From Taibaiella sp. (GTDB lineage: Bacteria > Bacteroidota > Bacteroidia > Chitinophagales > Chitinophagaceae): 64,000 nucleotides of DNA. The stretch lies in contig JAHBTQ010000004.1 of the NCBI GenBank assembly GCA_019638495.1, positions 124,001 to 188,000 of the forward strand. Direction: 5' to 3'. Below are positions 12,101 through 13,867 of the stretch, piece after piece (the first letter of the stretch is position 1; every line of letters begins with the position of its first letter). A program made the position numbers and the translations under genes. The notes under the pieces are model-generated. The model was not told the DNA's origin, did not search any database, and saw nothing but the letters and a program-made list of their open reading frames with translations.

Positions 12101-12117
12101 GCCCGGATTAGCTCAGT
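12101..12117 (+). other. tRNA-like 5-prime fragment
   Basis: Seventeen bases, GCCCGGATTAGCTCAGT, look like the acceptor 5-prime strand, positions 8-9 and first D-stem strand of a tRNA. The sequence then diverges and no D-stem partner, anticodon or T arm follows. Possibly a truncated remnant, possibly chance. Confidence 0.3.
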
Positions 12118-12210: not shown

Positions 12211-12234
12211 AAGTGTATTAAAATCAATGCGCGG

Positions 12235-13119
12235 ATGAAACGGATTTTCCCTTTATTGGCCTTGCTGGTTGTTTTTTGTAGCTCATACCGGGCCACTGCA
12301 CAGCAGATAAGCCCGCAGGATATGGAAAAGCTGCACAAGATGGAAGACTCGCTGGTGTTTTCCGCTGATTCTATGTTCAATGCACTTATTCCGGATTCAC
12401 GCCCCGCTTATTCGGAGAAATTTGCACGCCAGTTGGTACGTGCATTAAAGATTCCCAATTCCTACTGGTACCCTTTTGATACGCTGAAAAAAATGGTAAA
12501 CATTGTCATTGCCGATGATAATGCATTCCGCATATTCAATTGGGAGATCGAGCCTACACCTACCACCCGCCGTTATTACGGAGCCATTCAACTGGCACAC
12601 CCCGACTTAAAACTTGTGGGACTTAACGATTACAGCGCGCAGCTCGATGCGGGCCTGGAAGACAGTGTCCTTCCTGCATCCCGCTGGTTTGGCGCACTGT
12701 ATTATCGCATCATTGCGCATGACGTAAATGGCCAGAAAGTCTACACCCTGTTCGGCCTCAACTCCGGCAGCACCATCAGTAACAGAAAAATACTTGACGC
12801 ACTCACATTCACACCCAAAGGTGTCACTTTTGGAGCGCCCATCTTCGGCGTAGGCTCAACTAACTTCGCCCGCCAGCCGGTGAAGCGTTTCGTACTGGAA
12901 TACAAAAAGGATGTTACTGCCTCTATGAACTGGGACCCGGAGCAAAATATGATCGTATTCGACAGGCTTGCTTCAGTATCTAATGACCCCAGCCGCAAGT
13001 ACACTTATGTGCCCACGGGGCAATATGATGGCTTTGCCTGGAGCGAGGGCATGTGGAATTTGCATAAAGACATCATGCAAATTACCATACTAAAAGACGG
13101 CGAAGCCCCCAACGAATAA
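12235..13119 (+). CDS. Secreted protein of unknown function
   Basis: 294 residues from ATG 12235, where a signal peptide begins (MKRIFPLLALLVVFCSSYRATAQ); the ORF is open to 12124 but the promoter box at 12203 argues against that start. The mature part has no motif I recognise. It includes IFNWEIEPTPTTRRYYGAIQL and YYRIIAHDVNGQKVYTLFGLN, features I associate with Bacteroidota conserved hypothetical proteins, and ends acidic. Monocistronic, between the GlsB-like gene and the tRNA-Arg unit. Confidence 0.75.
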   Translation: MKRIFPLLALLVVFCSSYRATAQQISPQDMEKLHKMEDSLVFSADSMFNALIPDSRPAYSEKFARQLVRALKIPNSYWYPFDTLKKMVNIVIADDNAFRIFNWEIEPTPTTRRYYGAIQLAHPDLKLVGLNDYSAQLDAGLEDSVLPASRWFGALYYRIIAHDVNGQKVYTLFGLNSGSTISNRKILDALTFTPKGVTFGAPIFGVGSTNFARQPVKRFVLEYKKDVTASMNWDPEQNMIVFDRLASVSNDPSRKYTYVPTGQYDGFAWSEGMWNLHKDIMQITILKDGEAPNE

Positions 13120-13147: not shown

Positions 13148-13292
13148 CGGCCGCAATACTCTATTCAGTTTGTCTTGGCATGTTTATGGCCAGGCTTACT
13201 TTAAGTTTAGAGGTATTATCTATAATTAAGGAATTGGCTGCAAAGCAGTCTGAAATTAACCAGCAGTTACGGTCCGGTAGCTCAGCTGGATA

Positions 13293-13312
13293 CCTGCCTG
13301 CCGGTAGGTAGG
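13293..13312. repeat. Palindromic insert 1 (degenerate)
   Basis: CCTGCCTGCCGGTAGGTAGG. As RNA the two 10-base halves still pair fully using two G-U pairs. Placed at the junction of the D loop and the 3-prime D-stem strand of the broken tRNA. Confidence 0.8.
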
Positions 13313-13329
13313 GATCACCAGCCTTCTAA

Positions 13330-13349
13330 CCTGCCTGCCGGCAGGCAGG
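13330..13349. repeat. Palindromic insert 2 (perfect)
   Basis: CCTGCCTGCCGGCAGGCAGG, a perfect 20-bp palindrome, placed between the anticodon loop and the 3-prime anticodon-stem strand of the broken tRNA. It is the same element as insert 1. From memory, palindromes of this type are dispersed in many Bacteroidota genomes. Confidence 0.85.
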
Positions 13350-13397
13350 GCTGGGGGTCATTGGCTCGAAGCCAATCCGGGCAAAAAAGTGGGAGGA

Positions 13398-13652
13398 ATG
13401 TTCTTTGTTTACGTTATCAGAAGCGAGGTGAACGGCAACTTTTATGTAGGAATGACAGAAAATGTTGATGTGCGGCTAATGCAACATAACCGTGGATATA
13501 CTCGTTCTACAAAAGCACACAAGCCGTGGACGTTATTCTTTTTTGAGTTATTCGAAACAAGAATTGAAGCCAGAAAAAGAGAAGTATATTTGAAATCTGG
13601 CTCTGGCAAAGAGTTGATTAAACAAAAATGGGCCAGTAGCACAGCTAAATAA
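13398..13652 (+). CDS. Small GIY-YIG domain protein
   Basis: 84 residues from ATG 13398 (a GTG at 13389 is in frame). The whole protein is one GIY-YIG fold: FVYVIRS...FYVGMT is the GIY-YIG core, NVDVRLMQHNRGYTRSTK carries the conserved Arg, and ELFETRIEARKREVYLKSGSGKELIK the conserved Glu and basic tail. This is the UPF0213/YhbQ-like group of stand-alone GIY-YIG proteins; family members may cleave DNA, function here unproven. It starts 15 bases after the broken tRNA-Arg and ends 88 bases before the intact tRNA-Arg, which strongly suggests the three form one unit. GGGAGG directly before the ATG is unusually Shine-Dalgarno-like for this genome. Confidence 0.9.
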   Translation: MFFVYVIRSEVNGNFYVGMTENVDVRLMQHNRGYTRSTKAHKPWTLFFFELFETRIEARKREVYLKSGSGKELIKQKWASSTAK

Positions 13653-13740
13653 AGTCGATGTAAAGTAGAACAGGGAGCGCGCGAAGAGAATAACACAAAA
13701 AATTGGCTATTAAACAGCCATAATAAAAACCAGCAGTTAC

Positions 13741-13814
13741 GGTCCGGTAGCTCAGCTGGATAGAGCACCAGCCTTCTAAGCTGGGGGTCATTGGTTCGAA
13801 TCCAATCCGGATCA
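13741..13814 (+). tRNA. tRNA-Arg (anticodon TCT)
   Basis: A 74-nt cloverleaf. Acceptor GGTCCGG pairs with CCGGATC (one G-U), the D stem is GCTC/GAGC, the anticodon stem CCAGC/GCTGG encloses CTTCTAA with TCT at 13775-13777, and the T stem ATTGG/CCAAT encloses TTCGAAT. Discriminator A at 13814; CCA is not encoded. It reads AGA codons. A terminator follows at once. A damaged duplicate lies 470 bp upstream. Confidence 0.97.
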
Positions 13815-13816
13815 CT

Positions 13817-13845
13817 AAACGTAAGCACACAGCTTACGTTTTTTT
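13817..13845 (+). terminator. Terminator of the tRNA-Arg unit
   Basis: Ten-bp stem (AAACGTAAGC with GCTTACGTTT), loop ACACA, then TTTT. Begins 3 bases after the tRNA. Confidence 0.88.
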
Positions 13846-13867
13846 GTGCCTATACCACCCCTAAAAC

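Follow-up and report, generated by a model that had tools for sequence, protein, structure and literature searches.

How does a tRNA gene come to lie on both sides of a small nuclease gene, and do the three parts spread together? We analyzed this question for a locus of Taibaiella sp. located in a 64-kb stretch of DNA, here referred to as the window, and for related loci in congeners, in a sample of the phylum and in GTDB.

Organization of the locus

The original prediction, a damaged tRNA-Arg copy (13271-13383), an 84-residue GIY-YIG protein and an intact tRNA-Arg(TCT) in tandem, was confirmed by ARAGORN, Rfam, PF01541 and by alignment of the two copies. The features of the locus are:

13258..13270, +, duplicated leader, copy 1: AACCAGCAGTTAC, with weaker similarity back to about 13232
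13271..13383, +, broken tRNA-Arg(TCT) copy, from alignment to the intact copy
13293..13312, no strand, 20-bp palindrome in the D-loop, after tRNA nt 22: CCTGCCTGCCGGTAGGTAGG
13330..13349, no strand, perfect 20-bp palindrome in the anticodon loop, after tRNA nt 39: CCTGCCTGCCGGCAGGCAGG, a clean insertion
13398..13652, +, single-domain GIY-YIG nuclease gene, 84 aa, ATG to stop (PF01541, E 4e-16)
13728..13740, +, duplicated leader, copy 2: AACCAGCAGTTAC
13741..13815, +, intact tRNA-Arg(TCT) (ARAGORN; Rfam 70.4 bits)
13818..13846, +, terminator-like inverted repeat past the intact tRNA, read from the sequence: AAACGTAAGC...GCTTACGTTTTTTT

The broken and the intact tRNA-Arg(TCT) were aligned with a score of 102, and shuffled sequences reached a maximum of about 11, which rules out a chance match of the two copies. 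Neither ARAGORN nor Rfam called the region 13271-13383 as a tRNA. Its damage consists mainly of two clean 20-bp palindrome insertions. After removal of the inserts 8 mismatches in 76 positions were left between the copies, so the broken tRNA is a duplicate that has decayed as well. The D-loop palindrome differs from the 20-mer CCTGCCTGCCGGCAGGCAGG at 2 positions and is inserted after the same nucleotide as in most units of the type U described below, and the anticodon-loop palindrome was found at the same site in congeners (L003-L006, L065). By chance none of the two would be expected in the window. The upstream copy had thus been rightly taken as broken, but its two palindromes had been overlooked, and with them a hairpin whose conservation extends across phyla and which follows the lineage of the nuclease.

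The shared 5' flank of 13 bases was found as claimed, and the fainter match about 40 bases upstream corresponds to AATTGGCT, which precedes the two copies at distances of 39 and 40 bases. The GIY-YIG ORF starts after a gap of 14 bases from the broken tRNA and is the only ORF between both copies. The view of the intact tRNA as a spare copy was contradicted. An anticodon-arm scan of the genome found no other intact tRNA-Arg(TCT) than the one at 13741-13815, and the second copy is non-functional. In total, only 37 tRNA-family matches were present in the genome, one of them being the broken copy of another unit.

The nuclease

The domain carries the active-site Tyr, Arg and Glu that characterize the GIY-YIG superfamily; the candidate catalytic residues Y5, Y16, R26 and E62 were invariant in 37 diverse rows. 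An AlphaFold2 model (26 relatives, mean pLDDT 96) was closest in fold to UPF0213 BH0048 and to Slx1, with about 1.7-5 A over about 70 columns for the Slx1 chains, and the catalytic domains of I-TevI and UvrC were more distant. UPF0213/YhbQ and Slx1 were also the closest solved sequences. Slx1 is a branched-DNA nuclease, and to our knowledge UPF0213/YhbQ and Slx1 proteins act in housekeeping or branched-DNA repair and have no tie to tRNA genes. No extra DNA-binding domain was present in the 84 residues. Phage homing-endonuclease profiles gave weak matches only (best E 1e-3), and no phage record matched over 80% of the protein. A known defence family was rejected as well, as PADLOC returned no convincing match (E 0.006).

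Association with tRNA genes

In the window genome six of seven profile matches for related GIY-YIG genes adjoin a tRNA (Arg-TCT, Arg-CCT, Ala-GGC, Asp-GTC, Met-CAT and Ser-GGA), the seventh being degenerate. Within the phylum sample a tRNA on the same strand at a distance of up to 300 bp was present in 59 of 69 loci, and 51 of the 69 carried a direct repeat across the nuclease gene. Assuming 45 tRNAs, the chance of a tRNA neighbour for one gene is about 0.5%. For the best 80 relatives in GTDB the corresponding numbers were 75 (up to 400 bp) and 62, in a sample that leans to the Arg/Met/Leu clade because the scan was driven by the narrower alignment A2. The tendency of homologues to lie near tRNAs, proposed as a check by the original prediction, was therefore found in both samples. 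As an internal control, divergent GIY-YIG genes of other lineages showed no tRNA in the loci examined; these were seven (L243-L248, L251), without a tRNA call in the fetched sequence.

The best 80 GTDB relatives include Chlorobiota, Ignavibacteriota and five Patescibacteria, and cultured carriers are found in Maribacter, Christiangramia, Sediminicola and Aestuariivivens. A local oddity of one genome was ruled out by the recurrence at other tRNAs across the phylum. Carriage by viruses or plasmids was rejected too, with only 3 viral contigs, no plasmid and 3 weak phage matches.

Structure of the units

In 139 of 154 loci whose tRNA was intact, the same tRNA recurred in broken form across the nuclease gene, usually with a hairpin. 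The loci are non-redundant, with a few from the same genomes via two collections. Two arrangements were distinguished. In type U (n=75) the broken copy lies upstream, followed by the gene and the intact tRNA, and in type D (n=64) the intact tRNA is followed by the gene and a 3' part of the tRNA. What is left of the tRNA in the broken copy is just a short 5' stretch in many type U units and a 3' stretch in many of type D. The type U ORF often terminates within the intact tRNA, at a stop codon contained in its GGATAG, as in L003, L006, L007, L082 and L094, where the stop lies in the D-arm.

Terminal inverted repeats were present in 61 of 123 loci with inserts of at least 12 nt, compared to 6.8 (maximum 16) for shuffled inserts. 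The exact 20-mer CCTGCCTGCCGGCAGGCAGG was found in 28 broken copies, mostly in the D-loop after nt 22, with carriers including Chlorobiota and Patescibacteria. Most Arg, Met, Leu and Phe broken copies have a palindrome, mostly at the same nucleotide, and in Lys, Ala, Asp and Pro units a TCCCG..CGGGA hairpin tends to replace the anticodon arm. Near-identical units were also found in tandem arrays, each closed by a single intact tRNA, for example three units each at tRNA-Pro and tRNA-Ser of genome G182 and further ones in G126 and G103.

The orthologous site in congeners

The orthologous site was recognized by the gene upstream of the unit (window 12232-13116) and read in 30 congener loci including that of the window. 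Seven of these contained broken tRNA, GIY-YIG gene and tRNA (in one, G020, the contig ends inside the nuclease gene), and a separate search added G024 as the eighth occupied site, so that the arrangement is present at this site in seven species besides that of the window. A remnant of a shortened tRNA piece and the end of the gene was left in one locus (L075). A lone tRNA-Arg(TCT) was found in 17 loci and no tRNA in 5. The comparison with relatives lacking the unit, as had been suggested, hence yielded both empty and occupied forms. Presence and absence at an otherwise conserved site, by which free-standing homing endonucleases are recognized, was observed here with 8 occupied, 1 remnant and 17 lone-tRNA sites. 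The empty ones could be precise deletions by recombination between the tRNA repeats, and presence/absence alone does not prove gain.

In congener G043 the duplicated leader comprised 47 bp with zero mismatches, and the broken copy carried the anticodon-stem variant GCTTGG of the host itself. Both point to a recent and local duplication or conversion. In some congeners the tRNA body of the broken copy was almost complete, and its anticodon arm was enlarged. Together with the frequent tRNA neighbours, these site forms give good support to the predicted propagating unit that is tied to a tRNA and keeps it intact.

Co-inheritance of hairpin, isotype and nuclease

On a tree of 135 nucleases (about 80 columns) the tRNA isotype changed 30 times, compared to a mean of 76 and a minimum of 70 after shuffling. 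The hairpin class, set by simple text patterns, changed only 7 times (shuffled mean 32.5, minimum 27), and shuffling of labels within the isotype only still gave a mean of 17.3 and a minimum of 13. Judged by these sequence comparisons, hairpin class and nuclease are co-inherited, also within an isotype.

A candidate homing element at tRNA genes

In our estimate there is an even chance that the unit is a SegB-like homing element at tRNA genes which uses the hairpin-marked partial tRNA copy as repair arm. It would consist of a Slx1-like GIY-YIG nuclease, an altered copy of the resident tRNA and the intact tRNA on the same strand, the altered copy being a partial or full tRNA with a GC-rich palindrome in the D-, anticodon or T-loop or in place of the anticodon arm. 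The nuclease would break a tRNA gene of its own isotype, and homologous recombination would mend the break from the tRNA sequence of the element, thereby copying the unit in and restoring one intact tRNA. The hairpin copy would serve as homology arm, would by now be a poor target and would make deletions between the direct repeats harder. Tandem arrays would arise if the intact neighbour were cut again and again.

This reading builds on features taken directly from the sequences, namely the architecture, the recurrence at many isotypes, the presence and absence at one site, the tandem units and the co-inheritance of hairpin and nuclease; from them we infer the cutting, the copying by repair and what the hairpin does. 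It is favoured by a link to same-strand tRNAs far above the chance value, by the regular broken copy of the same tRNA, by the occupied and empty congener sites and the leader and stem variant of G043, by tandem units ending at one intact tRNA, by isotype and hairpin class following the nuclease tree and by the fold close to Slx1. On the other hand, the intact tRNA of a carrier looks like an empty target even though the broken copy is altered, and with its 84 aa the protein lacks an added DNA-binding domain such as that of I-TevI. The possible origin of the empty sites by deletion also counts against it, and the isotype fidelity could result from a homology requirement or from vertical descent.

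Phage SegB is the precedent for such a process. This GIY-YIG enzyme cleaves within tRNA genes and causes tRNA and segB to be amplified in tandem (PMC13096335). As a free-standing gene of T-even phages it lies, like the unit, beside tRNA genes of any isotype (PMC13096335, PMC2988022). However, SegB is a larger protein encoded in tRNA clusters of phages, whereas the unit is chromosomal with one per tRNA and matched only the 3 viral contigs, and for SegB no hairpin-bearing tRNA copy has been described. We would therefore place the unit among the free-standing homing elements by likeness, which does not prove membership.

If true, this would explain the location of small GIY-YIG genes at tRNA genes in Bacteroidota and the origin of a palindrome family of this phylum. 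It would also give SegB-type homing a bacterial counterpart that carries a hairpin, a selfish element of less than 500 bp that targets single-copy essential tRNA genes while the host survives.

Solitary palindromes and the main rival explanation

Homing alone leaves solitary palindromes elsewhere in the genome unexplained. In the window genome 20 sites matched the 20-mer with up to 2 mismatches, the two of this unit included, corresponding to about 1 per 220 kb, and a reversed-pattern control gave 0. Several of the solitary palindromes were clean insertions in arrays of 7-8-bp repeats without target duplication. The nuclease was present in 22 of 26 genomes with the 20-mer and in 52 of 122 genomes without it (p 7e-5, not corrected for phylogeny). 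These counts rely on a strict nuclease list, since the profile cut-off (94 of 148 genomes) also admitted divergent GIY-YIG genes. At the strict cut-off the nuclease was missing from four palindrome-positive genomes. Three of them (G149, G153, G184) contained divergent GIY-YIG matches only, with no tRNA nearby in those examined, and G084 was without any GIY-YIG match.

The main rival explanation is a RAYT/REP-like system in which the nuclease recognizes and mobilizes palindromes, with the tRNA-linked unit as master and the solitary 18-20-bp palindromes as non-autonomous products. The same exact 20-mer in broken copies across phyla and scattered in the window genome, the clean solitary copies, the enrichment of the nuclease in palindrome-positive genomes, the hairpin class following the nuclease and a fold that fits branched or hairpin DNA are all consistent with it. 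Still, it fails to explain the near-constant siting at a tRNA with a copied tRNA, four palindrome-positive genomes lack a strict nuclease match, the co-inheritance can be mere linkage, and the enrichment ignores phylogeny. We regard it as unlikely on its own, although both homing and a role for the palindromes could be true.

Rickettsia palindromic elements are likewise small palindromes inserted in genes, and we know of no nuclease linked to them. RAYTs belong to the HUH tyrosine transposases and go together with GTAG-tagged REPs (PMC3733652), and CGTC repeats have no dedicated transposase. The unit resembles such REPtrons in the coupling of a nuclease lineage to dispersed, cleanly inserted palindromes of about 20 bp. 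It differs by a GIY-YIG domain instead of a HUH tyrosine transposase and by its location at tRNA genes, and no GTAG tag was found at the borders of the 20-mer CCTGCCTGCCGGCAGGCAGG.

Extending the homing reading to the palindromes, we tentatively suggest, at somewhat below even confidence, a new class of mobile elements. Here a structure-selective GIY-YIG nuclease and its cognate palindrome, carried as a hairpin-marked tRNA fragment, would be copied by tRNA homology and shed solitary palindromes, with essential tRNA genes as safe ports. Such a class may, with similar reserve, be widespread in Bacteroidota and extend to Patescibacteria, Chlorobiota and Ignavibacteriota. The three-part unit has the appearance of mobile DNA of a kind not described so far, residing on essential tRNA genes; no description of it was found in the open literature, a coverage outside of which most subscription papers and bioRxiv lie.

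Further alternatives

In a toxin/antitoxin or defence module the nuclease would act on the tRNA of its isotype as RNA, and a hairpin pseudo-tRNA transcript would be the decoy or antidote. Isotype fidelity and the nearly intact tRNA bodies with enlarged anticodon arm in some congeners agree with this, and the invariably shared strand would allow co-transcription. Yet many units keep a short 5' or 3' piece only, which often makes a tRNA-shaped decoy impossible, the closest folds are DNA nucleases, no convincing PADLOC family was matched, and tandem copies and empty sites suit DNA mobility better. We consider such a module improbable.

We see equally little prospect for passive debris, i.e. a unit that homes by tRNA homology while random host palindromes pile up in the useless tRNA copy. 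The two palindromes and point changes in the broken copy of the window and the dispersed nature of these host repeats would fit. But a palindrome as sparse as about 1 per 220 kb is present in most Arg, Met, Leu and Phe broken copies, mostly at the same nucleotide, and the hairpin class follows the nuclease and not chance.

Integrase islands likewise insert at tRNA genes without loss of an intact tRNA, but usually duplicate the tRNA 3' end only, and they are ruled out here, in line with the original prediction, by the lack of an integrase between the copies and by the duplication of 5' parts (type U), 3' parts or whole tRNAs with a hairpin.

Additional observations

The segment GCCCGGATTAGCTCAGT at window position 12101-12117 resembles the 5' part of a tRNA and, allowing up to 2 mismatches, had no second occurrence in the genome. 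It is possibly a relic of another tRNA-linked unit. Among the solitary palindromes, those of L009, L010, L011 and L014 (positions 1501-1520) lie cleanly inside repeat arrays such as TTACGAC, and those of L016, L018, L020 and L023 (same positions) within a second dispersed repeat, AAGCCCCTTTAGGG^GTTTGGGG, found at four places in the genome. In a tRNA-Glu unit (L008 1-560) the broken copy carried four tandem copies of another hairpin, CCTGCCAGCCGGAAGGCTG, and about 51 bp of 3' flank together with the terminator were duplicated. Tandem arrays at tRNA fragments were seen in L123 (783-3552), L124 and L125, with eight near-identical and three GIY-YIG units. In the tRNA-Met unit of the window genome (L257 1400-2000) a piece of the D-loop was replaced by TCCCGATAGCTATCGGGA, a sequence that occurs about 28 times in this genome.
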